DNA of 64,000 bases from Panorpa germanica (Eukaryota; Arthropoda; Insecta; Mecoptera; Panorpidae). Every line of letters begins with the position of its first letter. Within the stretch, counting starts at the first letter, position 1. Shown here piece after piece: positions 1 through 64,000 of the stretch. The stretch lies in contig OY783204.1 of the NCBI GenBank assembly GCA_963678705.1, positions 10,426,759-10,490,758 on the forward strand, read 5' to 3'. The position numbers and the translations under genes were made by a program. Below the pieces are notes generated by a model, which searched no databases, was not told the origin of the DNA, and saw only the letters and a list, made by a program, of their open reading frames with translations.

Positions 1-139
1 TTATCACTCGACTGTTCTGCTTTCTTTAGAAACAATTTAATATTTAGTTTAGTTCTAGACACGACACGAATAACATCGTATCTCGTAGAATTTATTAACT
101 TTTAAAAAAAATTATTTGCAAATCTGACATTTGTGGAAA

Positions 140-770
140 ATGGCTAATTACAATGTGCCTTTACCTAAGCCACGATTGGAATGGTAAGAAATATTCTATT
201 ATTTATAGTTTTATTCTTTTATTTATTATCTTAATAAAGATTGAATTGATTTTTGCAGGCAGTATAGACCGGAACAATTTATGTATAATTTAAGCTTGGC
301 CGAGAGGGCTTTGTACAACAACGTATAAAGCTCTTGGGCCAAAGCAAATTTACAAAGCTTGGCCTATGATCGAGATGTAAGTTTATTTGTTCAGTTCATT
401 ATTAGTATAACGTGAACAATACTTTTAAAGTGTAATTAGCATAATCGTATAATGTATCAATTCTATGTTTCAGATATGTTCCATTGAAGTAAATCGTCCG
501 TTCAACTTTAAAAATAAGCTTCGTTGCATGTCCCGCTTAGTAACAAGAAATCTTAAAAACACGGATGATATTGACGTAATGATAAAAGCTCTGGCGATAA
601 AGTTTAAATCGAAAAAATTACATTCAGCTAGAAGACGTGTTCTGAGGTTCAAAGAGTCATTGTCTGCAAGAAAGCAGGAAAAGATCAACACGGAAGTTGA
701 AACTTTAAAATGTGGTCACTTGTGTGCTGTATTATATGCGGACAAGTGTCCTTGCAATGCACCTACATAA
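140..770 (+). pseudogene. U1: array gene copy, nonsense in exon 2
   Basis: Exons at 140-183, 259-376 and 474-770 with normal GT-AG borders. The Gln codon at residue 38 is TAA instead of CAA, so the product would stop after 37 residues. The last sense codon is also lost (ttatga became taatga), which shortens exon 3 by one residue. The same residue-38 stop recurs in U13, which also shares the ttgtgg leader variant, so these two copies are close relatives. A reading of exon 3 alone is open, but the gene as a whole is not. Confidence 0.88.
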
Positions 771-1913
771 TGAAAACTTGAGGAATAATCTTGACTTTAA
801 CCTCTTTAATTGTAATACCTTTATAAATTAAATTATATGAATAGAATAAATTTTAATTTTAGTAATTGTTTAGTTTTTTTTTTTTTTTTTTTTTACTTTT
901 ATATTTTTCAAATAACAAATCAAAGCAAAATAAATGAAATATAAGAATGACGTATAATAAAATACGCATTCAGACAGAAACAAAATAAAAATTATGTCAG
1001 TTTTTAGGTTACAGTTACTCGAATATTACTACACTTGCCTTCTTTTCTTCAATAAACTAACAACAGACCCGTGTCCCTGCAATACACCTAAAATATGGAA
1101 ACGTGAGGAATGATCTTGACCTTAAACTCTTTAATTGTAATACATATATAAATTAAATAATATATGTAATAAAATAATATGGAAAGAATAAATTTTAATT
1201 TTAGTAATTATTTAGTTTTATTTTATTTTTTTTAAATTTTATTTTAAGGATATTTTAATTGCAAAAATTATTATTTACTAAACAAAGAATATAAATAGAA
1301 GTGAAAATTTCGCATAAAAACATAAAATTTATCATATTCCTAAATTGAAAGAGTATGTTTACAAATCTTATATTTATCCACTTTATACGTTTATTAATTT
1401 TCTATAAGGCACCAAATGTGCTCTCTGAAAATTTATAAGATTTGAGTAATGAACCAGATTCACGTTGCAACAAATTTTTTTTAACAATGCTATTACTAAA
1501 ATAATTTGAATTTATAAATTCAATCAATAAATACTAAAGAATAAATAAAATGTAATGACAGTTGATGACAATATATTAAATCATCGATAAGGCTTACATT
1601 TTTAGTACCACTTGGCGTTAATTTGTTGATGCATAATAAGGAATATGCACATTTTAATATTTATAAAAATTTAAAGTTGAAGTAGCTTATTGGTTATTGG
1701 CTGGAATATAAGGGGTGTGGTCTAAAGATAAGCGCTTCACTATAGTAGATCGGGGATAGTTTAACTCAGGTATGTTATCACTCGACTGTTCTGCTTTCTT
1801 TAGAAACAATTTAATATTTAGTTTAGTCCTAGACACGACACGAATAACATCGTATCTCGTAGAATTTATTAACTTTTAAAAAAAATTATTTGCAAATCTG
1901 ACATTTGAGGAAA

Positions 1914-2547
1914 ATGGCTAATTACAATGTGCCTCTACCTAAGCCAAGATTGGAATGGTAAGACATATTTTATTATTTATAGTTTTATTTTTTTAATTAA
2001 TATCTTAATAATGATTGAATTGATTTTTGCAGGCAGTATAGACCGGAATAATTTATGTATAAATTAAGCTTGGCCGAGAGGGCTTTGTACAACAACGTAC
2101 AAAGCTCTTGGGCCAAAGCAAATTTACAAAGATTAGCCTATGATCGAGATGTAAGTTCATTTGTTCAGTTCATTATTAGTATAACGTAAACAATACTTTT
2201 AAAGTGTAATTAGCATAATCGTATAATGTATTAATTCTATGTTTCAGATATGTTTTATTAAAGTAAATCGTCCGCCCAACTTTAAAAATAAGCTTCGTTG
2301 CATGTCCCGCTTAGTAACAAGAAATCTCAAAAACACGGATGATATTGACGTAATGATGAAAGCTCTGGCGTTGAAGTTTAAATCGAAAAAATTACATTTA
2401 GCTAGAAGCCGTATTCTGAGGTTTAAAGAGTCATTGTCTGCAAGAAAGCAGGAAAAGATTAACACGGAAGTTGAAACTTTAGAATGTGGTCATTTGTGTG
2501 CTGTATTATATGCGGACAAGTGTCCCTGCAATGCACCTACATTATGA
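1914..2547 (+). pseudogene. U2: array gene copy, B-type, nonsense in exon 2
   Basis: Exons at 1914-1957, 2033-2150 and 2248-2547, all splice borders intact. Codon 21 (Gln, CAA) is TAA, so translation would end after 20 residues. Exon 3 carries the B-type markers Phe57 and Leu105 (consensus Ser in both), shared with U5, U6 and U11. No other lesion is visible, so this could be a recent single-base inactivation. Confidence 0.88.
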
Positions 2548-3679
2548 AAACGTGAGGAATAATCTTGACTTTAACCTCTTTAATTGTTATACCTTTATAA
2601 ATAAATAATATGAAAAGAATCCATTTTGGTTTTAGTAATTGTTGAGTTTTATTTTATTTTTTTTTTTTAATTTTATATTTTTTAAATAACAAATCAAAGC
2701 AAAATAAATGAAATATAAGATAACGTATAATAAAATTCGCATTCAGACAGAAACAAAATAAAAATTATGTCAGTTTTTAGGTTTCAGTTACTCGAATATT
2801 ACTACACTTGCCTTCTTTTCTTCAATAAGCTAACAACAGACCCGTGTCCCTGCAATACACCTAAATTATGGAAACGTGAGGAATGATCTTGACCTTAAAC
2901 TCTTTAATTGTAATACATATATAAATTAAATAATATATGTAATAAAATAATATGGAAAGAATAAATTTTAATTTTAGTAATTATTGAGTTTTATTTTATT
3001 TTTTTTAAATTTTATTTTAAGGATATTTTAATTGCAAAAATTATTATTTACTAAACAAAGAATATAAATAGAAGTGAAAATATCGCATAAAAACATAAAA
3101 TTTATCATATTCCTAAATTGAAAGAGTATGTTTACAAATTTTATATTTATCCACTTTATACGTTTATTAATTTTCTATAAGGCACCAAATGTGCTCTCTG
3201 AAAATTTATAAGATTTGAGTAATGAACCAGACTCACGTCGCAACAAATTTTTTTTAACAATGCTATTACTAAAATAATTTGAATTTATAAATTCAATCAA
3301 TAAATACTAAAGAATAAATAAAATATAATGACAGTTGATGACAATTTAATAAATCACCGAAAAGGCTTACATTTTTAGTACCACTTGGCGTTAATTTCTT
3401 GATGCATAATAGGGAATATGCACATTTTAATATTTATAAAAATTTAAAGTTGAAGTAGCTTATTGGTTGGAATATAAGGGGTGTGGTCTAAAGATAAGCG
3501 ATTCACTATAGTCGGTCGGAGATAGTTTAACTCAGGTATGTTATCACTCGACTGTTCTGCTTTCTTTAGAAACAATTTAATATTTAGTTTAGTCCTAGAC
3601 AAGACACGAATAACATCGTATCTCGTAGAATTTATTACCTTTTAAAAAAAATTATTTGCAAATCTGACATTTGAGAAAA

Positions 3680-4313
3680 ATGGCTAATTACAATGTGCCT
3701 TTACCTAAGACAAGATTGGAATAATAAAAAATATTTTATTAATTATAGTTTTATTCTTTTATTTATTATCTTAATAATGATTGAATTGATTTTTGCAGGC
3801 AGTATAGACCGGAACAATTTATGTATAAATTAAGCTTGGCCGAGAGGGCTTTGTACAACAACGTACAAAGCTCTTGGGCCAAAGCAAATTTACAAAGATT
3901 GGCCTATGATCAAGATGTAAGTTCATTTGTTTAGTTCATTATTAGTATAACGTAAACAATACTTTTAAAGTGTAATTAGCATAATCGTAATATGTAATAA
4001 TTTTATGTTTCAGATATGTTCCATTAAAATAAATCGTCCGCCTAACTTTAAAAATAAGCTTCGTTGCATGTCCCGCTTAGTAACAAGAAATCTCAAAAAC
4101 ACGGATAATATTGACGTAATGATGAAAGCTCTGGCGTTAAAGTTTAAATCGAAAAAATTACATTCAGCTAGAAGCCGTGTTCTGAGGTTCAAAGAGTCAT
4201 TGTCTGCAAGAAAGCAGGAAAAGATTAACACGGAAGTTAAAACTTTAGAATGTGGTCATTTGTGTGCTGTATTATATGCGGACAAGTGTCCCTGCAATGC
4301 ACCTACATTATGA
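3680..4313 (+). pseudogene. U3: array gene copy, C-type, first splice donor lost
   Basis: Exon 1 starts at 3680, but the exon 1 donor (normally gaatg/gtaag) reads gaata/ataaa. The GT is gone and read-through meets a TAA immediately after residue 14. Exon 2 (3799-3916) and exon 3 (4014-4313) are open. C-type markers: Lys59, Ile60, Asn86, Gln53. The same donor loss is found in U8 and U9. The 3' side has a long A-run in place of the usual AATAAA context near 4380. Confidence 0.87.
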
Positions 4314-5456
4314 AAACGTGAGGGATAATCTTGACTTTAACCTCTTTAATTGTAATACCTTTATAAATTAAATAATATGAAAAAAAAAAAAATTTTAATT
4401 TTAGTAATTGTTGAGTTTTATTTTATTTTTTTTTTTTAATTTTATATTTTTTAAATAACAAATCAAAGCAAAATAAATGAAATATAAGAATGACGTATAA
4501 TAAAATTCGCATTCAGACAGAAACAAAATTAAAATTATGTCAGTTTTTAGGTTACAGTTACTCGAATAATACTACACTTGCCTTCTTTTCTTCAATAAAC
4601 TAACAACAGACCCGTGTCCCTGCAATACACCTAAATTATGGAAACGTGAGGAATGATCTTGACCTTAAACTCTTTAATTGTAATACATATATAAATTAAA
4701 TAATATATGTAATAAAATAATATGGAAAGAATAAATTTTAATTTTAGTAATTATTGAGTTTTATTTTATTTTTTTTAAATTTTATTTTAAGGATATTTTA
4801 ATTGCAAAAATTATTATTTACTAAACAAAGATTATAAATAGAAGTGAAAATTTCGCATAAAAACATAAAATTTATCATATTATTAAATTGAAAGAGTATG
4901 GTTACAAATTTTATATTTATCCACTTTATACGTTTATTAATTTTCTATATGGCATTAAATGTGCTCTTTGAAAATTTATAAGATTTAAGTAATGAACTAG
5001 ATTCACGTTGCAACAAATTTTTTTTACCAATGCTATTACTAAAATAATTTGAATTTATAAATTCAATTAATAAATACTAAAGAATAAATGAAATATAATG
5101 ACAGTTGATGACAATTTAATAAATCATCGATAAGGCTTACATTTTTAGTACCACTTGGCGTTAATTTTTCGATGCATAATAGGGAATATGCACATTTTAA
5201 TATTTATAAAAATTTAAAGTTGAAGTAGCTTATTGGTTATTGGTTGGAATATAAGGGGTGTGGTCTAAAGATAAGCGCTTCACTATAGTAGGTCGGGGAT
5301 AGTTTAACTCAGGTATGTTATCACTCGACTGTTCTGCTTTCTTTAGAAACAATTTAATCTTTAGTTTAGTCCTAGACACGACACGAATAACATCGTATCT
5401 CGTAGAATTTATTAACTTTTAGAAAAAATTATTTGCAAATCTGACATTTGAGGAAA

Positions 5457-6090
5457 ATTGCTAATTACAATGTGCCTTTACCTAAGCCAAGATTGGAATG
5501 GTAAGAAATATTTTATTATTTATAGTTTTATTCTTTTATTTATTATCTTAATAATGATTGAATTGATTTTTGCAGGCAGTATAGACCGGAACAATTTATG
5601 TATAAATTAAGCTTGGCCAAGAGGGCTTTGTACAACAACGTACAAAGCTCTTGGGCCAAAGCAAATTTACAAAGATTGGCCTATGATCGAGATGTAAGTT
5701 CATTTGTTCCGTTCATTATTAGTATAACGTAAACAATACTTTTAAAGTGTAATTAGCATAATCGTATAATGTATTAATTCTATGTTTCAGATATGCTCCA
5801 TTGAAGTAAATCGTCCGCCCAACTTTAAAAATAAGCTTCGTTGCATGTCCCGCTTAGTAACAAGAAATCTCAAAAACACAGATGATATTGACGTAATGAT
5901 GAAAGCTCTGGCGTTGAAGTTTAAATCGAAAAAATTACATTCAGCTAGAAGCCGTGTTCTGAGGTTCAAAGAGTCATTGTCTGCAAGAAAGCAGGAAAAG
6001 ATTAACACGGAAGTTGAAACTTTAGAATGTGGTCATTTGTGTGCTGTATTATATGCGGACAAGTGTCCCTGCAATGCACCTACATTATGA
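5457..6090 (+). pseudogene. U4: array gene copy, A-type, start codon ATT
   Basis: Exons at 5457-5500, 5576-5693 and 5791-6090 are otherwise complete, with proper splice borders and no internal stop. The start codon position reads ATT instead of ATG, and no in-frame ATG lies upstream in the leader. The first in-frame Met is residue 23 in exon 2, so at best an N-terminally shortened protein could be made. U6, U7 and U10 share this lesion, which defines the A-type. Confidence 0.85.
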
Positions 6091-7229
6091 AAAAGTGAGG
6101 AATAATCTTGACTTTTACCTCTTTAATTGTAGTACCTTTATAAATTAAATAATATAAAAAAAATAGATTTTAATTTTAGTAATTGTTGAGTTTTATTTTA
6201 TTTTTTTTTTAATTTTATATTTTTTAAATAACAAATCAAAGCAAAATAAATGAAATATAAGAATGACGTATAATAAAATTCGCATTCAGACAGAAACAAA
6301 ATGAAAATTATGTCAGTTTTTAGGTTACAGTTACTCGAATATTACTACACTTGCCTTCTTTTCTTCGATAAACTAACAACAGACCCGTGTCCCTGCAAAA
6401 CACCTAAATTATGGAAACGTGAGGAATGATCTTGACCTTAAACTCTTTAATTGTAATACATATATAAATTAAATAATATATGTAATAAAATAATATGGAA
6501 AGAATAAATTTTAATTTTAGTAATTATTGAGTTTTATTTTATTTTTTTAAAATTTTATTTTAAGGATATTTTAATTGCAAAAATTATTATTTACTAAACA
6601 AAGAATATAAATAGAAGTGAAAATTTCGCATAAAAACATAAAATTTATCATATTCCTAAATTGAAAGAGTACTTTTACAAATTTTATATTTATCCACTTT
6701 ATACGTTTATTAATTTTCTATAAGGCACCAAATGTGCTCTCTGAAAATTTATAAGATTTGAGTAATGAACCAGATTCACGTTGCAACAAATTTTTTTTAA
6801 CAATGGTATTACTAAAATAATTTGAATTTATAAATTCAATCGTTAAATACTAAAGAATAAATGAAATATAATGACAGTTGATGACAATTTAATAAATCAT
6901 CGATAAGGCTTACATTTTTAGTACCACTTGGCGTTAATTTCTTGATGCATAATAGGGAATATGCACATTTTAATATTTATAAAAATTTAAAGTTGAAGTT
7001 GCTTATCAATTATTGGTTGGAATATAAGAGGTGTGGTCTAAAGATAAGCGCTTCACTATAGTAGGTCGGGGATAGTTTAACTCAGGTATGTTATCACTCG
7101 ACTGTTCTGCTTTCTTTAGAAACAATTTAATATTTAGTTTAGTCCTAGACACGACACGAATAACATCGTATCTCGTAGAATTTATTAACTTTTAAAAAAA
7201 ATTATTTGCAAATCTGACATTTGAGGAAA

Positions 7230-7863
7230 ATGGCTAATTAAAATGTGCCTTTACCTAAGCCAAGATTGGAATGGTAATAAATATTTTATTATATATAGTT
7301 TTATTCTTTAATTTATTATCTTAATAATGATTGAATTGATTTTTGCAGGCAGTATAGACCGGAACAATTTATGTATAAATCAAGCTTGGCCGAGAGGGCT
7401 TTGTACAACAACGTACAAAGCTCTTGGGCCAAAGCAAATTTACAAAGATTAGCCTATGATCGATATGTAAATTCATTTGTTCAGTTCATTATTAGTATAA
7501 CGTAAACAATACTTTTAAAGTGTATTTACAATAATCGTATAATGTATTAATTCTATGTTTCAGATATGTTTTATTGAAGTAAATCGTCCGCCCAACTTTA
7601 AAAATAAGCTTCGTTGCATGTCCCGCTTAGTAACAAGAAATCTCAAAAACACAGATGATATTGACGTAATGATGAAAGCTCTGGCGTTGAAGTTTAAATC
7701 GAAAAAATTACATTTAGCTAGAAGCCGTGTTCTGAGGTTTAAAGAGTCATTGTCTGCAAGAAAGCAGGAAAAGATTAACACGGAAGTTGAAACTTTAGAA
7801 TGTGGTCATTTGTGTGCTGTATTATATGCGGACAAGTGTCCCTGCAATGCACCTACATTATGA
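7230..7863 (+). pseudogene. U5: array gene copy, B-type, stop at codon 4, Helitron just downstream
   Basis: Exons at 7230-7273, 7349-7466 and 7564-7863. Codon 4 is TAA (normally Tyr TAC), leaving a three-residue peptide. The second donor is weakened (gtaaat) and Asp54 is Tyr. Exon 3 shows Phe57 and Leu105. The Helitron inserted 58 nt after the stop, before the AATAAA, so the transcript would also be separated from its polyadenylation signal. The codon-4 stop is shared with U8 and U11. Confidence 0.88.
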
Positions 7864-7921
7864 AAACGTGAGGAATAATCTTGACTTTAACCTCATTAAT
7901 TGTTATACCTTTATAAATAAA

Positions 7922-7950
7922 CTAGCAAACCCGGCGAACTCCGTTTCGCC
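7922..7950 (-). other. Helitron 3' terminus: CTAG end with subterminal hairpin
   Basis: The terminal CTAG is at 7922-7925. GGCGAA at 7933-7938 pairs with TTCGCC at 7945-7950 around a 6-nt loop. This hairpin about 7 nt inside CTRR is the termination signal that defines Helitron 3' ends. Confidence 0.88.
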
Positions 7951-8173
7951 ATCAGATGGCTTCGTTTTATGTAACATTTCGGTTGGTGATTAAAAGATGA
8001 AGAAAATTTTTTTTTTTGTTTTATATTTGAAAAGGAAAATTTTTATTTCATTTCACAACAGTAATGAATTCATTTTGATTAGTGTTAATTAGTTGAACTT
8101 CTCTAAGTAAATGAAAGTGAATCCAAAGTAAATACTGAATCGAAGCGTTATACGTGTCCGCAAATTATCCGTT

Positions 8174-11100
8174 TCATTGAAGTGCTCTTTGGTAAACCAC
8201 ATTTTTTGTTTTTTGGTCTGACGTTAACACAAACAAAGCGGATGGTTTCCCAACTCGTGAACACGCAACGTATAACTGCCCATGTGAAAAACAATGATTT
8301 TCTAAATTTATCCCGCAAACACTAAGCGATTGGCCTTGCGACTTGTTAATTGTCATTGCGAACGCAAGGCGAACTGGAAATTGCAATCGTTTGAAGTCAA
8401 ACGGAAGATCAGTCGGAATCATTGGTATTCGAGGAATACATACATTTTCACCTGCGTACTTTCCGTTAATAATGGTTGCCTCAATTAAATTCGGCATAAG
8501 TGTTTTTATCGAAAGTCGAGTACCGTTGCAAAGTCGCGGTGGATTCAAATTACGCAATATCATAATAACTGTACCAACTTTGAGTTGCAAGTTATGTGGT
8601 GGAAATCCTGGTAACTCCAGAGAGTTCAAAAACTCCGTTGGATAATTTACTACATCATCGGGATTTGTTATGGAATCAACGGATTTGTATGTCACCAAAT
8701 CGCCAGCAATTTTTGATTGAATGGTGAAATTTAGTGCGTGTACATCATTATTCTTTGCGGCAAGAATTGCTCGTTGACTTAACCAAGCATAATTCTGATA
8801 ATTCTCACTAATGTTTGGGAAAACATTTTCAATAAGAGCTAATTGAGAGTCTACAAATCGGCAAAAGTCGTTTGTAAGAGTAATTAATCCAGATGTCGCA
8901 TCAACTGGGACTTTTCCATTTCCAACAGCTAACAATTGTTTGGAAAATTGTGCAGCACTTTGATCGTTTTGAAGTTGAACTCTCATATTATTGGTTATCG
9001 ATAATGTTTTTACGTTATTCCATAAAGGTGATGCCTTCAGGCAAGCATTCAATTCATCTGCAGGCGTTCCACGGGGAATTACTGGCAACGTCTGCCTGAA
9101 ATCGACTGCCAACAATATCATCAAGCCGCCAAAGATGTTGTTATTTCGCCGAAGATCCTTCAGTGTGAAGTTAAGTGCTTCAAGTGATTTCTTATGTACA
9201 TCAGCGTCGCTGCGAATGGATCTGCTTCACACATTGCAAAGAAGCTAGTCAATGTTGTCGTTGGTGGTCTCTCAGCTCGTTGTGCCGCATTAGCCTCAGT
9301 GAAGTAAACTCTTTGGCCATTTTCCAAATGCACTGCTAAATGTACAACTGTGGGATATCTTTCATGAATTTGAAATGACAATAATCGCCACAGTGCTTCA
9401 TTAGTACTGACGTATCTGCCCATTTGGAAGTTGCTGATTTCGTCATTCGCATTTTCCGACGCAATACCAAACACAGCCATGTCGCTGCCTTTTGTGACGT
9501 ACTTGCACAAATATTTGATTGATTTGGCCGAATGACAACTTTCAACGTTTGCATGTGTTTTGAAAATTCGTGATAGCAGCGGGCAATATGGTACAATGAA
9601 TTCATTTCCGATCTCAATCTCTTGATTTTTAACTTTAACTTTGATAGTTCGACCATTATCTTCTTTTGAACGCCGACGATAAACTGGATATCCATCGTTC
9701 CCTGTGACTGTTTCAGCAACTAACGGTCGCGGATATCGTTTTGTGCACTTTCCATCAGCCATGCAAGGCGATAATGGACTTAATGCACAGCACGGTCCAT
9801 GCACCATCTGTGTCGTCACAATGTCGTGTAGATGGGGATCAGTGACTGGATCAGGTATTTCAGCTGATATGATGTCATCCACTTCATTTGAATGTAATTT
9901 GTTCAGCAACCAAATTAGGATATAAGCATGCGGTTGTCCACGCTTCTGCCATTCCACCAAGTACATATAACAACGTGTGTCACCAAAAACTCGATACTTA
10001 GTAAGCACATCCATCATAACCTTGAGTTTTTGCTGAAATACTCTGGCGATTATGTCATGGCGATCTTGCGGTTTTTGGCCCGGTTCCAACTCACGTTCAA
10101 TTTCCGTCCACTTCTGATTGCATGTGAACGTAATAAATAAATCCGGAGTTCCATAATTTCGCACGTACGTCATAGCGTCTTGAGCGTATTCGTGCATGTG
10201 TCGTGGGCTTCCGATGTAAGATGATGGGAGAATCGTCAGACGTCCAATATTCTGAACATCACCATCTGAATGAATAGCATCACGTTAGTGTATATAGTCC
10301 TCAGATTGTAGCTTTGCCTGATTGAATCGGATGAACGCTAAACGTTCGGTCTCGACTTTGACATACATGTCGACAGCGAATTGCTGGAATAGCCGACAAC
10401 ACTTCAGAATGACATTCTCCTCATGTGTACGAATCATTATACGATACGCATAGTAATTCATTGCGCTTAGATTTTTATTCGTTGATACACCTGAAAATGC
10501 AAAATTAAATGAATTGTTAATGGGAACCAATAATAGCAATAATAGCAATAATTAGTGTGTGAATATTGTACCAGTAATTGGATCAACCATCTTCAACGTG
10601 ATGTCGTATCCGTCTTGCCCTTGCCAATAAATGATTGGATATTGTAACGCATTGTACAAACGATGTGTCTCGTTTACACGATGCATGATATTGCTTCTTC
10701 GCTGAACGACAATGTCTCGCGATTTAGTTGGATCGCCAACAATAATTGCATCAACATCATTAACGGTGGGTGCATTGAATCTTCGCACATGTTCACCTGT
10801 TGGGGTACAATCCGCTCTTATGACAAATTTGTGCGTATCTGATGGCATTCGTTCCAATGCTGTTTTGAACAAATTAACCACAGCATTATTAGCGTGAAAA
10901 AATGCTTGCAACTGTTCAATAATTCGTCTCTTTAACTGTTGTGTTCCCTGTATATTGCACCGCACATTCAGCTGATCCACCATCGACGAAATGAAATATA
11001 TTTGCAGAAATTGATGCGGTTCATCTGGTGTTGGCACCATTGAACCATGCAAATGATATATTTGTCCTTGTATCTGTAATTGCAAACAATCATTTGTTGA

Positions 11101-11675
11101 AGAATACGGTGTAACTTCTGATCGTGTGATGGTGTAGTATGTGGTGTATATGTAGTTGTTATGTGTTGCAATTCATTGTGTTGGTGTGAGTGATTATTTA
11201 TTTGTGTTGTATCTTTTACCTTGCAAGTCGGCATGAAGCCGCCTTCTCGAATGATATTAGCTCTAAAGGAAGTCATGCGAAAGCAGTTATTGTATTCAAG
11301 GATGGGATCAATTCCATCGAACAATGGTTTCAGTGGCTGTGGTGGTGTAAGTAATGGATCTAGTTTGACTTTTCCACTTGCGCAGCACAATCCAGCCGTT
11401 TCTCTTTTGAACTTTAACGCATTGCAATATCGGCATATAGTCGTCGTTCGTCCAATATCTAAATTTTCATCATCACTGTAGTTCGCAGTGGGATCATATT
11501 GGAATGCCAAGCGATTGTATGATGCCAATGATCTTCGAGTGCTTACGCGTTGTCTCAATCGGGCATTTTCTGTTATTATATTTTGTCTTTCTTCGCTTAA
11601 GTTCTGTGAATACAGTTGTTGCTGGCTTGCATGTCTTGCGCGGCTGCCGATGTTCGCACGTCGTCCTCTAGGCAT
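8174..11675 (-). pseudogene. Helitron Rep-helicase gene, two introns, internally deleted
   Basis: Coding pieces on the minus strand run 11675-11220 (N-terminus, zinc-type cysteines C-x2-C then CC), 11073-10572, and 10490 to about 9210 (Rep). The helicase remnant is 9208-8174. Two GT-AG introns fit the frame: 11219-11074 (phase 0) and 10571-10491. Rep motifs seen: DLFITFTCNQKW, PHAYILIW and YLCKYVTKG. The HUH metal-binding motif is damaged, H-A-Y instead of H-A-H, by CAT to TAT at 9922-9924. A TAA at 10285-10287 interrupts Rep. At about 9210 the Rep frame stops after CEADPFA and the helicase resumes out of frame at DADVHKKSLEALNFTLKDLR, so the Walker A and B part has been deleted. Later helicase motifs (DFRQTLPV, INKSQGQSL, LYVACSRVG) and the natural C-terminus remain. 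This copy cannot make an active transposase. Confidence 0.93.
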
Positions 11676-12214
11676 TTTGGACTATGGACAGAGTGGTGAA
11701 TGTAACCTTAAATGCACGATCCACATAATTTACACAGTTCAACTTACCACCTTAAAGACAAATGCCTGCTGTTGAAATTGAATAAAAATTTGCACAATAC
11801 ACGTGATTAATTTGATGGTTTCCAATTTAAATGTTAGGAAATGAATAACTTATTTTTTTAACTTTTTTTTCACAATGAACACAATACCGGTTTGTCACAT
11901 GAAATTAATTAACTGAGCAGAGAATAATGAGTAGCTGTCAAAAATGTATCACGCACCGGCGCCTACTACTTAAAACACCGGTCTACTTAAAATATTGGTT
12001 TGTATATATGCTATGTATCAGAGTAGGCGCTGTATGTGAAAAAAGATTTTCCCGCTTTTCTGTTGAAATTTTTCCTGAATTCCTGAATTTTCTTTGCTAT
12101 AAACCTCACTGAGCCCGAGACCTTTCCAACGAATGCAAAACCGTAAAAATCGGTTCGTGCGTTCTGGAGTTATAACGTCAGGAAGGAAAACCCGACTTAT
12201 TTTTATATAGTAGA
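11676..12214 (-). other. Helitron 5' non-coding region
   Basis: About 540 bp between the Rep start and the element's TC terminus. It presumably holds the Rep promoter and leader. I see no convincing open frame in it. The outermost part (12120-12214) carries the subterminal sequence following the 5' TC end. Confidence 0.7.
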
Positions 12215-13296
12215 TAATATGAAAAGAATAAATTTTAGTTTTAGTAATTGTTGAGTTTTATTTAATTTTTTTTTTTTAATTTTATATTTTTTAAATAACA
12301 AATCAAAGCAAAATAAATGAAATATAAGAATGACGTATAATAAAATTCGCATTCAGACAGAAACAAAATTAAAATTATGTCAGTTTTTAGGTTACAGTTA
12401 CTCGAATAATACTACACTTGCCTTCTTTTCTTCAATAAACTAACAACAGACCCGTGTCCCTGCAATACACCTAAATTATGGAAACGTGAGGAATGATCTT
12501 GACCTTAAACTCTTTAATTGTAATACATATATAAATTAAATAATATATGTAATAAAATAATATGGAAAGAATAAATTTTAATTTTAGTAATTATTGAGTT
12601 TTATTTTATTTTTTTTTAATTTTATTTTAAGGATATTTTAATTGCAAAAATTATTATTTACTAAACAAAGATTATAAATAGAAGTAAAAATTTCGCATAA
12701 AAACATAAAATTTATCATATTATTAAATTGAAAGAGTATGGTTACAAATTTTATATTTATCTACTTTATACGTTTATTAATTTTCTATAAGGCACCAAAT
12801 GTGCTCTTTGAAAATTTATAAGATTTAAGTAATGAACTAGATTCACGTTGCAACAAATTTTTTTTAACAATGCTATTACTAAAATAATTTGAATTTATAA
12901 TTTCAATTAATAAATACTAAAGAATAAATGAAATATAATGACAGTTGATGACAATTTAATAAATCATCGATAAGGCTTACATTTTTAGTACCACTTGGCG
13001 TTAATTTCTTAATGCGTAATAGGGAATATGCACATTTTAATATTTATAAAAATTTAAAGTTAAAGTAGCTTATTGGTTATTGGTTGGAATATAAGGGGTG
13101 TGGTCTAAAGATAAGCGCTTCACTATAGTAGGTCGGGGATAGTTTAACTTAGGTATGTTATCACTCGACTGTTCTGCTTTCTTTAGAAACAATTTAATAT
13201 TTAGTTTAGTCCTAGACACGACACGAATAACATCGTATCTAGTAGAATTTATTAACTTTTAGAAAAAATTATTTGCAAATCTGACATTTGAGGAAA

Positions 13297-37457: not shown

Positions 37458-37481
37458 CGTCGCATTGCGACGGGGGTAAAC
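37458..37481 (+). other. Internal Helitron-like 3' hairpin, monomer 2
   Basis: Same structure as in monomer 1 (CGTCGC-att-GCGACG, then ggggtaaac) leading straight into the TC start of monomer 3, with no CTAG. Confidence 0.8.
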
Positions 37482-51407: not shown

Positions 51408-52547
51408 AAACGTGAGGAATAATCTTGACTTTAACCTCTTTAATTGTAATACCTTTATAAATTAAATAATATGAAAAAAATGAATTTTAATTTTAGTAAT
51501 TGTTGAGTTTTATTTTATTTTTTTTTTTAATTTTATATTTTTTAAATAACAAATCAAAGCAAAATAAATGAAATATAAGAATGACGTATAATAAAATTCG
51601 CATTCAGACAGAAACAAAATGAAAATTATGTCAGTTTTTAGGTTACAGTTACTCGAATATTACTACACTTGCCTTCTTTTCTTCAATAAACTAACAACAG
51701 ACCCGTGTCCCTGCAATACACCTAAATTATGGAAACGTGAGAAATGATCTTGACCTTAAACTTTTTAATTGTAATACATATATAAATTAAATAATATATG
51801 TAATAAAATAATATGGAAAGAATTAATTTTAATTTTAGTAATTATTGAGTTTTATATTATTTTTTTTAAATTTTATTTTAAGGATATTTTAATTGCAAAA
51901 ATTATTATTTACTAAACAAAGAATATAAATAGAAGTAAAAATTTCGCATAAAAACATAAAATTTATCATATTCCTAAATTGAAAGAGTATGTTTACAAAT
52001 TTTATATTTATCCACTTTATACGTTTATTAATTTTCTATAAGGCACCAAATGTGCTTTCTGAAAATTTATAAGATTTGAGTAATGAAACAGATTCACGTT
52101 GCAACAAATTTTTTTTAACAATGCTATTACTAAAATAATTTGAATTTATAAATTCAATCAATAAATACTAAAGAATAAATGAAATATAATGACAGTTGAT
52201 GACAATTTACTAAATCATCGATAAGGCTTACATTTTTAGTACCACTTGGCGTTAATTTCTTAATGCATAATAGGAAATATGCACATTTCAATATTTATAA
52301 AAATTTAAAGTTGAAGTAGCTTATTGGTTATTGGTTGGAATATAAGGGGTGTGGTCTAAAGATAAGCCCTTCACTATAGTAGGTCGGGGATAGTTTAACT
52401 CAGGTATGTTATCACTCGACTGTTCTGCTTTCTTTAGAATCAATTTAATATTTAGTTTAGTCCTAGACACGACACGAATAACATCGTATCTCGTAGAATT
52501 TATTAACTTTTAAAAAAAATTATTTGCAAATCTGACATTTGAGGAAA

Positions 52548-54955: not shown

Positions 54956-56094
54956 AAACGTGAGGAATAATCTTGACTTTAACCTCTTTAATTGTAATAC
55001 CTTTATAAATTAAATAATATGAAAAGAATAAATTTTAATTTTAGTAATTGTTGAGTTTTATTTTATTTTTTTTTTTAATTTTATATTTTTTAAATAACAA
55101 ATCAAAGCAAAATAAATGAATAATAAGAATGACGTATAATAAAATTCGCATTCAGACAGAAACAAAATGAAAATTATGTCAGTTTTTAGGTTACAGTTAC
55201 TCGAATATTACTACACTTGCCTTCTTTTCTTCAATAAACTAACAACAGACCCGTGTCCCTGCAATACACCTAAATTATGGAAACGTGAGGAATGATCTTG
55301 ACCTTAAACTCTTTAATTGTAATACATATATAAATTAAATAATATATGTAATAAAATAATATGGAAAGAATAAATTTTAATTTTAGTAATTATTTAGTTT
55401 TATTTTATTTTTTTTAAATTTTATTTTAAGGATATTTTAATTGCAAAAATTATTATGTACTAAACAAAAAATATAAATAGAAGTGAAAATTTCGCATAAA
55501 AACATACAATTTGTAATATTCCTAAATTGAAAGAGTAAGTTTACAAATTTTATATTTATCCACTTTATACGTTTATTAATTTTCTATAAGGCACCAAATG
55601 TGCTCTCTGAAAATTTATAAGATTTGAGTAATGAACCAGATTCACGTTGCAACAAACTTTTTTTAACAATGCTATTACTAAAATAATTTAAATTTATAAA
55701 TTCAATCAATAAATACTAAAGAATAAATAAAATATAATGACAGTTGATGACAATTTAATAAATCATCGATAAGGCTTACATTTTTAGTACTACTTGGCGT
55801 TAATTTCTTTATGCATAATAGGAAATATGCACATTTTAATATTTATAAAAATTTAAAGTTGAAGTAGCTTATTGGTTATTGGTTGGAATATAAGGGGTGT
55901 GGTCTAAAGATAAGCGCTTCATTGTAGTAGGTCGGGGATAGTTTAACTCAGGTATGTTATCACTCGACTGTTCTGCTTTCTTTAGAAACAATTTAATATT
56001 TAGTTTAGTCCTAGACACGACACGAATAACATCGTATCTCGTAGAATTTATTAACTTTTAAAAAAATTATTTGCAAATCTGACATTTGAGAAAA

Positions 56095-56728
56095 ATGGCT
56101 AATTACAATGTGCCTTTACCTAAGCAAAGATTGGAATGGTAAGAAATATTTTATTATTTATAGTTTTATTCTTTTATTTATTATCTTAATAATGATTGAA
56201 TTAATTTTTGCAGGCAGTATAGACCGGAACAATTTATGTATAAATTAAGCTTGGCCGATAGGGCTTTGTACAACAACGTACAAAGCTCTTGGGCCAAAGC
56301 AAATTTACAAAGATTGGCCTATGATCGAGATGTAAGTCCATTTGTTTAGTTCATTATTAGTATAACGTAAACAATACTTTTAAAGTTTAATTAGCATAAT
56401 CGTATAATGTATTAATTCTATGTTTTAGATATGTTTCATTGAAGTAAATCGTCCGCCCAACTTTAAAAATAAGCTTCGTTGCATGTCCCGCTTAGTAACA
56501 AGAAATCTCAAAAACACAGATGATATTGACGTTATAATGAAAGCTCTGGCGTTAAAGTTTAAATCGAAAAAATTACATTCAGCTAGAAGCCGTGTTCTGA
56601 GGTTCAAAGAGTCATTGTCTGCAAGGAAGCAGGAAAAGATGAACACGGAAGTTGAAACTTTAGAATGTGGTCATTTGTGTGCTGTATTATATGCGGACAA
56701 GTGTCCCTGCAATGCACTTACATTATGA
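56095..56728 (+). CDS. U28: intact array gene, 153 residues
   Basis: Exons 56095-56138, 56214-56331 and 56429-56728, acceptor tag before exon 3. Open frame. Changes: Pro11 to Gln, Glu30 to Asp, Ser57 to Phe, Met90 to Ile, Ile125 to Met. With U25 it shares gaagtccatttgtttag in intron 2 and spacer details, placing the two at the same position of a three-unit repeat. Confidence 0.8.
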
Positions 56729-57868
56729 AAACGTGAGGAATAATCTTGACTTTAACCTCTTTAATTGTAATACCTTTATAAATTAAATAATATGAAAAAA
56801 ATGAATTTCAATTTTAGTAATTGTTGAGTTTTATTTTATTTTTTTTTTTAATTTTATATTTTTTAAATAACAAATCAAAGCAAAATAAATGAAATATAAG
56901 AATGACGTATAATAAAATTCGCATTCAGACAGAAACAAAATGAAAATTATGTCAGTTTTTAGGTTACAGTTACTCGTATATTACTACACTTGCCTTCTTT
57001 TCTTCAATAAACTAACAACAGACCCGTGTCCCTGCAATACACCTAAATTATGGAAACGTGAGAAATGATCTTGACCTTAAACTTTTTAATTGTAATACAT
57101 ATATAAATTAAATAATATATGTAATAAAATAATATGGAAAGAATTAATTTTAATTTTAGTGATTATTGAGTTTTATATTATTTTTTTTAAATTTTATTTT
57201 AAGGATATTTTAATTGCAAAAATTATTATTTACTAAACAAAGAATATAAAAAGAAGTAAAAATTTCGCATAAAAACATAAAATTTATCATATTCCTAAAT
57301 TGAAAGAGTATGTTTACAAATTTTATATTTATCCACTTTATACGTTTATTAATTTTCTATAAGGCACCAAATGTGCTCTCTGAAAATTTATAAGATTTGA
57401 GTAATGAAACAGATTCACGTTGCAACAAATTTTTTTTAACAATGCTATTACTAAAATAATTTGAATTTATAAATTCAATCAATAAATACTAAAGAATAAA
57501 TGAAATATAATGACAGTTGATGACAATTTACTAAATCATCGATAAGGCTTACATTTTTAGTACCACTTGGCGTTAATTTCTTAATGCATAATAGGGAATA
57601 TGCACATTTCAATATTTATAAAAATTTAAAGTTGAAGTAGCTTATTGGTTATTGGTTGGAATATAAGGGGTGTGGTCTAAAGATAAGCGCTTCACTATAG
57701 TAGGTCGGGGATAGTTTAACTCAGGTATGTTATCACTCGACTGTTCTGCTTTCTTTAGAATCAATTTAATATTTAGTTTAGTCCTAGACACGACACGAAT
57801 AACATCGTTTCTCGTAGAATTTATTAACTTTTAAAAAAAATTATTTGCAAATTTGACATTTGAGGAAA

Positions 57869-58502
57869 ATGGCTAATTACAATGTGCCTTTACCTAAGCC
57901 AAGATTGGAATGGTAGGAAATATTTTATTATTTATGGTTTTATTCTTTTATTTATTATCTTAATAATGATTGAATTGATTTTTGCAGGCAGTATAGACCG
58001 GAACAATTTATGTATAAATTAAGCTTGGCCGAGAGGGCTTTGTACAACAACGTACAAAGCTCTTGGGCCAAAGCAAATTTACAAAGATTGGCCTATGATC
58101 GAGATGTAAGTTCATTTGTTCAGTTCATTATTAGTATAACGTAAACAATACTTTTAAAGTGTAATTAGCATAATCGTATAATGTATTAATTCTATGTTTC
58201 AGATATGTTCCATTGAAGTAAATCGTCCGCCCAACTTTAAAAATAAGCTTCGTTGCATGTCCCGCTTAGTAACAAGAAATCTCAAAAACACGGATGATAT
58301 TGACGTAATGATGAAAGCTCTGGCGTTGAAGTTTAAATCGAAAAAATTACATTCAGCTAGAAGCCGTGTTCTATGGTTCAAAGAGTCATTGTCTGCAAGA
58401 AAGCAAGAAAAGATTAACACGGAAGTTGAAACTTTAGAATGTGGTCATTTGTGTGCTGTATTATATGCGGACAAGTGTCCCTGCAATGCACTTACATTAT
58501 GA
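57869..58502 (+). CDS. U29: intact array gene, 153 residues
   Basis: Exons 57869-57912, 57988-58105 and 58203-58502. The first donor is gtagga, weaker than the usual gtaaga. Open frame; differs from consensus by Arg112 to Trp and Pro151 to Leu, both shared with U30-U32. The leader carries agaatcaattt, as in U26 three units upstream, showing the mosaic nature of the units. Confidence 0.82.
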
Positions 58503-59642
58503 AAACGTGAGGAATAATCTTGACTTTAACCTCTTTAATTGTAATACCTTTATAAATTAAATAATATGAAAAGAATAAATTTTAATTTTAGTAATTGTTA
58601 AGTTTTATTTTATTTTTTTTTTTAATTTTATATTTTTTAAATAACAAATCAAAGCAAAATAAATGAATAATAAGAATGACGTATAATAAAATTCGCATTC
58701 AGACAGAAACAAAATGAAAATTATGTCAGTTTTTAGGTTACAGTTACTCGAATATTACTACACTTGCCTTCTTTTCTTCAATAAACTAACAACAGACCCG
58801 TGTCCCTGCAATACACCTAAATTATGGAAACGTGAGGAATGATCTTGACCTTAAACTCTTTAATTGTAATACATATATAAATTAAATAATATATGTAATA
58901 AAATAATATGGAAAGAATAAATTTTAATTTTAGTAATTATTTAGTTTTATTTTATTTTTTTTAAATTTTATTTTAAGGATATTTTAATTGCAAAAATTAT
59001 TATGTACTAAACAAAAAATATAAATAGAAGTGAAAATTTCGCATAAAAACATACAATTTGTAATATTCCTAAATTGAAAGAGTAAGTTTACAAATTTGAT
59101 ATTTATCCACTTTATACGTTTATTAATTTTCTATAAGGCACCAAATGTGCTCTCTGAAAATTTATAAGATTTGAGTAATGAACCAGATTCACGTTGCAAC
59201 AAACTTTTTTTAACAATGCTATTACTAAAATAATTTAAATTTATAAATTCAATCAATAAATACTAAAGAATAAATGAAATATAATGACAGTTGATGACAA
59301 TTTAATAAATCATCGATAAGGCTTACATTTTTAGTACTACTTGGCGTTAATTTCTTTATGCATAATAGGAAATATGCACATTTTAATATTTATAAAAATT
59401 TAAAGTTGAAGTAGCTTATTGGTTATTGGTTGGAATATAAGGGGTGTGGTCTAAAGATAAGCGCTTCATTGTAGTAGGTCGGGGATAGTTTAACTCAGGT
59501 ATGTTATCACTCGACTGTTCTGCTTTCTTTAGAAACAATTTAATATTTAGTTTAGTCCTAGACACGACACAAATAACATCGTCTCTCGTAGAATTTATTA
59601 ACTTTTAAAAAAAATTATTTGCAAATTTGACATTTGAGGAAA

Positions 59643-60276
59643 ATGGCTAATTACAATGTGCCTTTACCTAAGCCAAGATTGGAATGGTAGGAAATATTTT
59701 ATTATTTATGGTTTTATTCTTTTATTTATTATCTTAATAATGATTGAATTGATTTTTGCAGGCAGTACAGACCGGAACAATTTATGTATAAATTAAGCAT
59801 GGCCGAGAGAGCTTTGTACAACAACGTACAAAGCTCTTGGGCCAAAGCAAATTTACAAAGATTGGCCTATGATCGAGATGTAAGTTCATTTGTTCAGTTC
59901 ATTATTAGTATAACGTAAACAATACTTTTAAAGTGTAATTAGCATAATCGTATAATGTATTTATTCTATGTTTCAGATATGTTCCATTGAAGTAAATCGT
60001 CCGCCCAACTTTAAAAATAAGCTTCGTTGCATGTCCCGCTTAGTAACAAAAAATCTCAAAAACACGGATGATATTGACGTAATGATGAAAGCTCTGGCGT
60101 TGAAGTTTAAATCGAAAAAATTACATTCAGCTAGAAGCCGTGTTCTATGGTTCAAAGAGTCATTGTCTGCAAGAAAGCAAGAAAAGATTAACACGGAAGT
60201 TGAAACTTTAGAATGTGGTCATTTGTGTGCTCTATTATATGCGGACAAGTGTCCCTGCAATGCACTTACATTATGA
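59643..60276 (+). CDS. U30: intact array gene, 153 residues
   Basis: Exons 59643-59686, 59762-59879 and 59977-60276; donor gtagga as in U29. Open frame. Changes: Leu28 to Met, Arg79 to Lys, Arg112 to Trp, Val140 to Leu, Pro151 to Leu. Val140 to Leu and the downstream tgattgttt variants recur in U32, 3548 bp further on. Confidence 0.82.
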
Positions 60277-61191
60277 AAACGTAAGGAATAATCTTGACTT
60301 TAACCTCCTTAATTGTAATACCTTTATAAATTAAATAATATGAAAAGAATAAATTTTAATTTTAGTGATTGTTTAATTTTATTTTATTTTTTTTTTTGAT
60401 TTTATATTTTTTAAATAACAAATCAAAGCAAAATAAATGAAATATAAGAATGACGTATAATAAAATTCGCATTAAGACAGAAACAAAATGAAAATTATGT
60501 CAGTTTTTAGGTTACAGTTACTTGAATATTACTACACTTGCCTTCTTTTCTTCAATAAACTAACAACAGACCCGTGTCCCTGCAATACACCTAAATTATG
60601 GAAACGTGAGGAATGATCTTGACCTTAAACTCTTTAATTGTAATACATATATAAATTAAATAATATATGTAATAAAATAATATGGAAAGAATAAATTTTA
60701 ATTTTAGTAATTATTTAGTTTTATTTTATTTTTTTTAAATTTAATTTTAAGGATATTTTAATTGCAAAAATCATTATGTACTAAACAAAAAATATAAATA
60801 GAAGTGAAAATTTTGCATAAAATCATAAAATCTATCATATTCCTAAATTGAAAGACTATGTTTACAAATTTTATATTTATCCACTTTATACGTTTATTAA
60901 TTTTCTATAAGGCACCAAATGTTTTCTTTAAAAATTTATAAGATTTGAGTAATGAACCAGATTCACGTTGGAACAAACTTTTTTTAACAATGCTATTACT
61001 AAAATAATTTAAATTTATAAATTCAATCAATAAATACTAAAGAATAAATAAAATATAATGACAGTTGATGACAATTTAATAAATCATTGATAAGGCTTAC
61101 ATTTTTAGTACCACTTGGCGTTAATTTCTTTATGCATAATAGGGAATATGCACATTTTAATATTTATAAAAATTTAAAGTTGAAGTAGCTT

Positions 61192-61250
61192 ATTGGTTAT
61201 TGGTTGGAATATAAGGGGTGTGGTCTAAAGATAAGCGCTTCACTATAGTA
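61192..61250 (+). promoter_or_regulatory. Putative polymerase II promoter of U31 (CCAAT, TATA, start site)
   Basis: Two inverted CCAAT boxes (ATTGG at 61192-61196 and 61199-61203), TATAAG at 61210-61215 and ttcactatag with a possible +1 A at 61242, about 32 bp after the TATA box. The leader to the ATG would then be about 175 nt. The arrangement is kept in nearly every full unit, including U2 (TATAAG 1707-1712) and U22. It is absent from U14, U16, U23 and U24. The start site is inferred, not observed. Confidence 0.6.
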
Positions 61251-61416
61251 GGTCGGGGATAGTTTAACTCAGGTATGTTATCACTCGACTGTTCTGCTTT
61301 CTTTAGAAACAATTTAATATTTAGTTTAGTCCTAGACACGACACGAATAACATCGTATCTCGTAGAATTTATTAACTTTTAAAGAAAATTATTTGCAAAT
61401 CTGACATTTGAGGAAA

Positions 61417-62050
61417 ATGGCTAATTACAATGTGCCTTTACCTAAGCCAAGATTGGAATGGTAAGAAATATTTTATTATTTATAGTTTTATTCTTTTATT
61501 TATTATCTTAATAATGATTGAATTGATTTTTGCAGGCAGTATAGACCGGAACAATTTATGTATAAATTAAGCTTGGCCGAGAGGGCTTTGTACAACAACG
61601 TACAAAGCTCTTGGGCCAAAGCAAATTTACAAAGATTGGCCTATGATCGAGATGTAAGTTCATTTGTTCAGTTCATTATTAGTATAACGTAAACAATACT
61701 TTTAAAGTGTAATTAGCATAATCGTATAATGTATTAATTCTATGTTTCAGATATGTTCCATTGAAGTAAATCGTCCGCCCAACTTTAAAAATAAGCTTCG
61801 TTGCATGTCCCGCTTAGTAACAAGAAATCTCAAAAACACGGATGATATTGACGTAATGATGAAAGCTCTGGCGTTGAAGTTTAAATCGAAAAAATTACAT
61901 TCAGCTAGAAGCCGTGTTCTATGGTTCAAAGAGTCATTGTCTGCAAGAAAGCAAGAAAAGATTAACACGGAAGTTGAAACTTTAGAATGTGGTCATTTGT
62001 GTGCTGTATTATATGCGGACAAGTGTCCCTGCAATGCACTTACATTATGA
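61417..62050 (+). CDS. U31: intact array gene, reference copy; 153-residue basic protein of unknown function
   Basis: Exons 61417-61460, 61536-61653 and 61751-62050 with consensus gtaaga/ttgcag and gtaagt/ttcag borders; introns of 75 nt (phase 2, within the Trp15 codon) and 97 nt (phase 0). The 153-residue product has a Pro-containing N-terminus (P7, P9, P11), a likely helical middle (residues 25-54), and a long Lys/Arg-rich part (62-125) with many basic residues. A C-terminal cluster has cysteines at 134, 138, 146 and 148 (C-x3-C-x7-C-x-C) with His136 between, which could bind a metal. No signal peptide or membrane segment is visible. I recognise no family. I chose the ATG at 61417 because it opens the only frame that spans both splice junctions, and it is the first ATG of the inferred leader. 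Possible roles such as nucleic-acid binding are only suggested by charge. Confidence 0.82.
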
Positions 62051-62510
62051 AAACGTGAGGAATAATCTTGACTTTAACCTCTTTAATTGTAATACCTTTA
62101 TAAATTAAATAATATGAAAAGAATAAATTTTAATTTTAGTAATTGTTAAGTTTTATTTTATTTTTTTTTTTAATTTTATATTTTTTAAATAACAAATCAA
62201 AGCAAAATAAATGAATAATAAGAATGACGTATAATAAAATTCGCATTCAGACAGAAACAAAATGAAAATTATGTCAGTTTTTAGGTTACAGTTACTCGAA
62301 TATTACTACACTTGCCTTCTTTTCTTCAATAAACTAACAACAGACCCGTGTCCCTGCAATACACCTAAATTATGGAAACGTGAGGAATGATCTTGACCTT
62401 AAACTCTTTAATTGTAATACATATATAAATTAAATAATATATGTAATAAAATAATATGGAAAGAATAAATTTTAATTTTAGTAATTATTTAGTTTTATTT
62501 TATTTTTTTT
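62018..62510 (+). repeat. Direct duplication of the gene's 3' end within each unit (325-bp offset)
   Basis: gtgtccctgcaat at 62023 in exon 3 recurs at 62348, followed in both by related cacct/ttatg, acgtgaggaat, cttgac, ctctttaattgtaata, aataaattttaatttt and gttttatttta. The first copy (62018 to about 62170) is the functional gene end. The second (62343 to about 62510) is diverged, so the duplication predates spread of the array. The second copy also holds an AATAAA (62464-62469). Confidence 0.85.
62122..62127 (+). terminator. Polyadenylation signal AATAAA of U31
   Basis: AATAAA 72 nt after the TGA, followed by a T-rich run, the expected layout for a 3' end. Most full units have it at the same place; U3, U9 and U12 have A-runs there instead. 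Confidence 0.7.
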
Positions 62511-62965
62511 AAATTTAATTTTAAGGATATTTTAATTGCAAAAATCATTATGTACTAAACAAAAAATATAAATAGAAGTAAAAATTTTGCATAAAATCAT
62601 AAAATCTATCATATTCCTAAATTGAAAGACTATGTTTACAAATTTTATATTTATCCACTTTATACGTTTATTAATTTTCTATAAGGCACCAAATGTTTTC
62701 TCTAAAAATTTATAAGATTTGAGTAATGAACCAGATTCACGTTGGAACAAACTTTTTTTAACAATGCTATTACTAAAATAATATAAATTTATAAATTCAA
62801 TCAATAAATACTAAAGAATAAATAAAATATAATGACAGTTGATGACAATTTAATAAATCATTGATAAGGCTTACATTTTTAGTACCACTTGGCGTTAATT
62901 TCTTGATGCATAATAGGGAATATGCACATTTTAATATTTATAAAAATTTAAAGTTGAAGTAGCTT

Positions 62966-63030
62966 ATTGGTTATTGGTTGGAATATAAGGGGTGTGGTCT
63001 AAAGATAAGCGCTTCACTATAGTAGGTCGG
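62966..63030 (+). promoter_or_regulatory. Putative polymerase II promoter of U32
   Basis: Same inverted CCAAT pair, TATAAG (62984-62989) and ttcactatag as in U31, with no changed base in these motifs. Confidence 0.58.
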
Positions 63031-63190
63031 GGATAGTTTAACTCAGGTATGTTATCACTCGACTGTTCTGCTTTCTTTAGAAACAATTTAATATTTAGTT
63101 TAGTCCTAGACACGACACGAATAACATCGTATCTCGTAGAATTTATTAACTTTTAAAGAAAATTATTTGCAAATCTGACATTTGAGGAAA

Positions 63191-63824
63191 ATGGCTAATT
63201 ACAATGTGCCTTTACCTAAGCCAAGATTGGAATGGTAAGAAATATTTTATTATTTATAGTTTTATTCTTTTATTTATTATCTTAATAATGATTGAATTGA
63301 TTTTTGCAGGCAGTATAGACCGGAACAATTTATGTATAAATTAAGCTTGGCCAAAAGGGCTTTGTACAACAACGTACAAAGCTCTTGGGCCAAAGCAAAT
63401 TTACAAAGATTGGCCTATGATCGAGATGTAAGTTCATTTGTTCAGTTCATTATTAGTATAACGTAAACAATACTTTTAAAGTGTAATTAGCATAATCGTA
63501 TAATGTATTAATTCTATGTTTCAGATATGTTCCATTGAAGTAAATCGTCCGCCCAACTTTAAAAATAAGCTTCGTTGCATGTCCCGCTTAGTAACAAGAA
63601 ATCTCAAAAACACGGATGATATTGACGTAATGATGAAAGCTCTGGCGTTGAAGCTTAAATCGAAAAAATTACATTCAGCTAGAAGCCGTGTTCTATGGTT
63701 CAAAGAGTCATTGTCTGCAAGAAAGCAAGAAAAGATTAACACGGAAGTTGAAACTTTAGAATGTGGTAATTTGTGTGCTCTATTATATGCGGACAAGTGT
63801 CCCTGCAATGCACTTACATTATGA
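63191..63824 (+). CDS. U32: intact array gene, 153 residues
   Basis: Exons 63191-63234, 63310-63427 and 63525-63824 with consensus splice borders. Open frame. Changes: Glu30 to Lys, Phe98 to Leu, Arg112 to Trp, His136 to Asn, Val140 to Leu, Pro151 to Leu. His136 to Asn is notable because this His lies inside the cysteine cluster, but the four cysteines are kept. The spacer after it (63825-64000) is the start of the usual 3' UTR and runs off the window. Confidence 0.82.
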
Positions 63825-64000
63825 AAACGTAAGGAATAATCTTGACTTTAACCTCCTTAATTGTAATACCTTTATAAATTAAATAATATGAAAAGAATAA
63901 ATTTTAATTTTAGTGATTGTTGAGTTTTATTTTATTTTTTTTTTTGATTTTATATTTTTTAAATAACAAATCAAAGCAAAATAAATGAAATATAAGAATG

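Follow-up and report, generated by a model that had tools for sequence, protein, structure and literature searches.

A spliced three-exon gene repeated in an autosomal tandem array, a probable macrosatellite, in Panorpa germanica, with relatives elsewhere in the genome

The stretch of DNA described here, a window of 64,000 nucleotides from Panorpa germanica (Mecoptera; contig OY783204.1, positions 10,426,759 to 10,490,758), lies within a tandem array on chromosome 1 (chr1) whose repeating unit of about 1.77 kb carries a gene. The genome searched comprises 464,208,970 bases in 249 contigs, with one haplotype behind all of the array data; the parts of the species' genome note that concern the assembly give 254 scaffolds and 464,228,243 bp, slightly above the assembly used here, and state that the sequenced specimen was a male, that chr1 (30.64 Mb) is an autosome and that the X measures 47.99 Mb (PMC11464959). 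As an earlier note on this DNA, made from the sequence alone, had described, the units follow one another head to tail; they lie on the + strand wherever they were counted in the window, and the 18 full-length units are 95.4–99.1% identical to one another (mean 0.966). The note's further statement that the array runs through the whole window was not borne out, since partial copies and about 11.9 kb of foreign DNA in three inserts interrupt it. With many head-to-tail units of more than 1 kb, most of them carrying the gene, whole or broken, the array fits the description of a macrosatellite.

A full unit is laid out in a constant order: a promoter block, exon 1 (44 coding nt), intron 1 (75 nt), exon 2 (118 nt), intron 2 (97 nt), exon 3 (300 nt including the stop codon) and a 3′ block. 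Both introns are of the GT..AG type and the three exons form a frame of 153 residues, which confirms the spliced gene and product length first proposed for this locus. The word AATATAA stands upstream in 26 of 26 full promoter copies, at least one ATTGG (CCAAT in reverse) in 25 of 26 and two in 16 of 26; of the 28 full copies, 21 have an AATAAA no more than 120 nt after exon 3 and all have one no more than 480 nt after it, often in the duplicated 3′ block. These promoter and AATAAA counts are word matches and no measure of function. The 3′ block is present twice per unit, at 76–85% identity; the duplicated segment takes in the end of exon 3 and the 3′ untranslated region (unit positions 747-912 and 1071-1258, e.g. 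2520-2685 and 2844-3031 of the window) and adds another AATAAA. The consensus protein of the array is small and basic, with an isoelectric point (pI) of 9.7, and shows no obvious signal peptide by eye.

The state of the copies was assessed on 57 full-length genes, viz. 53 from chr1 (25 in the window and 28 from fetched loci) and four from chromosome 17 (chr17), a copy being counted as intact when the ATG, all four splice dinucleotides, the frame and a single final stop codon are kept. Eight of the 25 full-length window copies are intact, and drift would leave 40% so, a figure that considers substitutions only at the mean noncoding divergence of the window copies (2.25%); about a third of full-length window copies are thus intact, no more than drift predicts. 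The earlier description of each unit as a complete transcription unit therefore fails for the majority of copies. Among single units, the one at 1774 is cut short by a stop at codon 21, and those at 57725, 59499 and 61273 are 97.7–98.5% alike. Exon 2 is represented in the window by 29 full and 2 partial copies, and exon 3 by 28 full and 4 partial copies (Table 1).

Table 1. Positions of the array, a representative gene copy, intact and broken copies and inserts in the window
Feature	Position	Strand	Remarks
Part of chr1 tandem array	1..64000 (C1:10426759-10490758)	+	18 unit intervals of 1740-1800 bp, with truncated or interrupted units
Promoter block, representative intact copy	61068..61277	+	two ATTGG words and AATATAAGG
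Exon 1, coding part, representative copy	61417..61460	+	begins MANYNVPLPKPRLE
Intron 1, representative copy	61461..61535	+	GT..AG, 75 nt
Exon 2, representative copy	61536..61653	+	118 nt
Intron 2, representative copy	61654..61750	+	GT..AG, 97 nt
Exon 3 with stop, representative copy	61751..62050	+	99 residues
Intact gene copy	23753..24520	+	gene block; ATG about 23833
Intact gene copy	47114..47883	+	
Intact gene copy	50695..51463	+	
Run of five intact copies	56016..63880	+	blocks at 56016, 57789, 59563, 61337, 63111
Ten full-length copies, all broken	60..22755	+	stop at codon 4, 15, 21 or 38; start codon or splice donor lost; frameshift
Deleted unit without promoter, 5′ untranslated region and most of exon 1	27202..28803	+	like junctions at 30271, 48494, 49397
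Helitron insertion	7922..12201	-	Helitron_like_N and PIF1 helicase fragments
Insert of three diverged tandem units of ~800 bp	35868..38257	.	no frame >71 codons; repeat of no assigned type
Pao-type retrotransposon remains	41538..46759	-	Peptidase_A17; direct repeats near both ends (85-112 nt; 93-96% identity)

The array reaches past the window and covers, in all, about 0.7 Mb of chr1, from about 10.08 to 10.78 Mb. A tag of 32 bases from exon 2, with up to 3 mismatches allowed, was found at 185 places genome-wide (154 forward and 31 reverse, against 0 for the reversed control), and among the 100 of these 185 that were listed, 94 lie at chr1:10.08–10.55 Mb, one at chr1:9.0 Mb and five on chr17. 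Among the matches listed by protein searches, further chr1 exons occur on both strands up to 10.78 Mb, those on the minus strand near 10.20–10.25 and 10.62–10.65 Mb. Degenerate units near 10.084–10.104 Mb mark one edge, and the last unit ends near 10.783 Mb, with a Helitron beyond. The array probably holds well over a hundred copies, and up to about 180. Units next to each other in the window list are barely closer than average (0.969 versus 0.966 mean identity), and because some of the closest pairs are separated ones (units 3536 and 18369, 0.983; units 50631 and 55952, 0.991), exchange or duplication of blocks of several units is pointed to.

The earlier note had placed the product in no recognised family, and profile searches bear this out, with no significant match for the array protein in Pfam, NCBIfam or PDB, and none in Pfam at E values up to 10. 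Fourteen PDB sequences obtained with a six-row profile (myoglobins at E 0.043–0.27, RPAP3 at E 0.43–0.55) were taken as chance matches, as were PIG-S (E 0.15) and the PQLLE model (E 0.057). An array of histone, rRNA or 5S genes was rejected, Rfam giving 0 matches in the 64-kb window and Pfam 0 for the protein. AlphaFold2 modelled exon 3 alone with a mean predicted local distance difference test score (pLDDT) of 46. No account of this gene family turned up among the papers listed by literature searches that touched on the question.

Homologues outside the array, the lack of which, together with a lack of spliced transcripts, had been proposed as the mark of a satellite with a relic gene, exist on chr17 and on chromosomes 6, 8 and 19 (chr6, chr8, chr19). 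The group at chr17:10.51–10.54 Mb consists of four near-copies, a fifth with a deletion, and one open diverged paralogue. The near-copies share about 91% identity with the array over the transcribed part and 81–82% protein identity over exon 3, and the promoter blocks before the chr17 copies are 84–85% identical to that of the array. All four full near-copies are open, with frames reaching 172 residues, and missed the strict test of intactness only through a later stop. The diverged paralogue (C17:10521722-10522388), which sits downstream of an array-like gene, is also open, with its splice signals present, 169 residues, a pI of 10.6 and an arginine-rich C-terminus; its exon 1 is nearly the same, its introns are similar, about 600 bp of upstream DNA are 85% identical, and exon 3 has diverged strongly. 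Two near-identical chr17 peptides are similar to array exon 3, and a whole-genome search with the chr17 peptide gave 121 matches to E 10, i.e. two on chr17 (self) and 119 chr1 exon-3 copies, with a best E of 0.0135, the array copies being non-independent. Adjoining the gene cluster, at C17:10512649-10517604, is a long open frame that resembles a Ty3-type retrotransposon, by eye only.

The remaining relatives, two on chr6 and others on chr19 and chr8, are broken or truncated, and in the copy at chr1:9.0 Mb the end of exon 3 has been replaced. Introns are retained wherever they are spanned, i.e. at the aligned relative loci and, for intron 1, in the chr8 fragment, and the copies have therefore spread as DNA. 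An array of retrocopies was ruled out on the same grounds. A second satellite, at chr1:1,705,096-1,708,692, is made of 28 tandem copies of 132 bp, in which exon 2 is joined only by the last part of intron 1. Separately, COX1 gave 19 matches outside the mitochondrial contig (on C16, C3, C21, C5 and others), 17 of them above the family cut-off, which are probable nuclear mitochondrial copies.

Inside the array little protein-level selection is visible, and copies change nearly as if the protein were irrelevant. Of the changes expected from the noncoding spectrum, the 53 chr1 copies show 0.74 (silent), 0.66 (missense) and 0.71 (stop), and the 25 window copies 0.72, 0.70 and 0.73, so that in both sets stops and missense changes are not depleted relative to silent ones. 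A spectrum-free count, from which the 5 chr1 copies of non-standard length were left out, gave for the remaining 48 of the 53 copies 47 of 278 silent, 128 of 1013 missense and 13 of 86 stop changes. Such figures bear on whether the array is a functional multicopy gene under dosage selection, through Stellate-like or other conflict-driven amplification, with many copies making a germ-line protein. The eight intact window copies, five of them consecutive, the promoter words retained in nearly every unit, the lower variability of array exons than of noncoding DNA and the constraint on exons 1 and 2 seen at family level would suit such a gene, and conflict has been proposed, in the portion of the source drawn on here, as an origin of multigene families (PMC10618873). 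The array is, however, autosomal, with no sex linkage, stops reach much the same fraction of their expected number as silent changes do, and the intact share does not exceed the drift prediction; we consider dosage selection unlikely.

Variation along the unit is uneven. Nucleotide diversity (π) is 0.048–0.050 in introns, 0.032–0.038 in exons and 0.009 in the 64 bp that open the unit, and in a scan with 60-bp windows the least variable one is the unit start, with 4 changes where 12.1 were expected (P 0.007), the sole one below 0.01 among 58 overlapping windows; four overlapping windows at unit positions 1046-1196 have P 0.010–0.014. A least variable stretch that lies outside the exons would be in keeping with an array that acts as RNA, either supplying or absorbing small silencing RNAs, its coding frame being carried along as a passenger, and antisense array transcripts are possible because both orientations exist on chr1. 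The stretch is, however, one nominal hit among 58 windows, and Rfam has no match in the window, so that a role of this kind appears very unlikely.

Between loci, purifying selection is apparent. The array and chr17 consensus sequences differ by 14 silent and 19 missense changes, with a ratio of nonsynonymous to synonymous divergence (dN/dS, ω) of 0.32, and at least 14 silent changes among 33 would arise by chance with P 0.014 under the array's own spectrum. Over exons 1 and 2, ω is 0.13–0.22 for one array copy against six other loci and 0.12–0.52 for other pairs, with one undefined; the comparison of the chr17 paralogue with chr19 was saturated there and gave no ω. Over the first 71 codons of exon 3, ω is 0.24–0.58 against the array and 0.44–1.90 for other pairs; chr19, whose own exon 3 values run past its truncation, is excluded here. 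The low ω of exons 1 and 2 and the higher values in exon 3 therefore indicate that the N-terminal part of the protein is kept by selection and the C-terminal part much less so. The same low ω against the array, together with the open frames and splice signals of the chr17 near-copies and the diverged paralogue, argues against a dead satellite in which neither the array nor its relatives still make protein. That 17 of the 25 full window copies are broken, that those on chr6, chr8 and chr19 are broken or truncated and that a separate exon-2-only satellite exists would all accord with a dead satellite, which we nevertheless regard as decidedly unlikely.

A contrast between exons and introns emerges from the comparison of an array copy with the chr17 paralogue and with chr19, where raw silent divergence in exons 1 and 2 is 0.56–0.58 against 0.06–0.13 in introns. 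Against chr19, about 17 of 30 silent sites differ versus 10 of 156 intron sites (P 9e-10), and against the chr17 paralogue about 17 of 31 versus 19 of 152 (P 1e-6). Silent and intron rates are alike between the two broken chr6 copies (P 0.57), as are silent and noncoding rates within the array. The array and a chr17 near-copy show a silent excess of 14/92 versus 3/172 (P 5e-5), and because this excess is weak at four-fold sites (2/35), the contrast rests mainly on the older comparisons. Base composition was rejected as its cause, since base-specific rates inside the array give only about a 1.2–1.3-fold effect. Segments also disagree in their affinities: in the 5′ untranslated region the two chr17 genes are closest (3/73, versus 7/74 and 8/73 for the array copy to either), and the introns group the array with the chr17 near-copy (3/164, versus 19/152 and 21/152).

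In our view, ectopic conversion of noncoding segments, with selection keeping the exon types apart, is the best account of both the contrast and the discordance between segments. The portions of the literature on three-finger toxin venom genes used here describe intron segments more than 85% identical beside dissimilar exon segments (PMC2474615), so that in those families, as in this one, the introns of paralogues are alike and exon parts differ; the toxins are secreted, whereas the array protein is basic and without an obvious signal peptide (by eye), and silent sites diverge here too. The contrast might instead reflect selection on the mature mRNA, in a family engaged in an arms race with RNA silencing in which the autosomal array would be driver, target or silencer of a conflict system off the sex chromosomes, but this we would rate as a long shot.

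The reading that we favour, with a probability of roughly 60%, is that of a gene-bearing autosomal macrosatellite grown from a member of a small, fast-diverging gene family and now mostly drifting. A chr17-like gene would have given rise to the array by duplication at the DNA level and by unequal exchange in blocks of units, and units would have been lost to deletion and transposon insertion. If the protein has a function, the chr17 copies would provide it, along with those array copies that chance has left intact, and the array itself would be a side effect of amplification and not a factory maintained through selection on every copy. One might guess, by analogy with human gene-bearing macrosatellites, that the protein is expressed in the germ line.

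Several points weigh against this drift-dominated origin. The direction, from chr17 to chr1, is one that we infer, and 85 of the 185 exon-2 tag places are without an assigned location. The window closes, at its 3′ end, with five full-length copies in a row that are all intact, and 14 of the 28 chr1 copies outside it are intact as well, though most of the latter were picked as top search matches and are a biased sample. Array exons may also be under weak selection, because they vary less than noncoding DNA (145 missense changes against 218 expected and 50 silent against 68, P 0.014) and because missense changes are slightly rarer than silent ones relative to expectation. The low variation at the unit start could reflect constraint on the transcript.

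The Stellate protein of Drosophila melanogaster is related to casein kinase 2 beta, and Stellate has a silencing partner in Su(Ste), a repressor locus acting through antisense PIWI-interacting RNA (piRNA). The array protein, for which Pfam gave nothing even with E values as high as 10, does not share the kinship to casein kinase 2 beta. Like the array, Stellate combines a short tandem gene with transposon insertions and partial copies, and its euchromatic cluster ranges from 1 to 198 copies across the three strains covered in the relevant part of the source (PMC12400953). Stellate is X-linked (PMC12400953), whereas the array lies on an autosome and the X is another scaffold, and the sex-chromosome parallel that had been suggested for the array therefore falls away.

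The supposed rarity of gene-bearing arrays finds no support either: in the sections used here, a human survey counts 96 arrays whose units exceed 2 kb, and 53 of the 96 contain genes or repeated exons (PMC2588610). Arrays of this kind are in fact already known, in the shape of human PRR20, and it is the gene family itself that is without a significant library match. PRR20, on human chromosome 13, resembles the array in organisation, being likewise autosomal and having a three-exon gene for a small protein in each monomer; its unit is larger (6.6 kb, versus 1.77 kb in the scorpionfly), its copies are far fewer (5–20, from the table column taken as that of PRR20), and its testis expression has been shown (PMC3018141). 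RS447, D4Z4/DUX4 and CT47, as far as the passages drawn on describe them, also carry a reading frame or gene per unit, and differ in being human, in their genes and in their larger units (PMC3018141, PMC2588610).

In the array an insect offers a clear example of a spliced gene that has become a macrosatellite, and the same genome also contains source-like genes, relics and a one-exon satellite. Such a genome allows one to ask whether arrays persist because of protein dosage, because of their RNA or for no benefit at all, and the combination of diverged exons with conserved introns preserves unusual traces of exchange or conflict among the members of a gene family.

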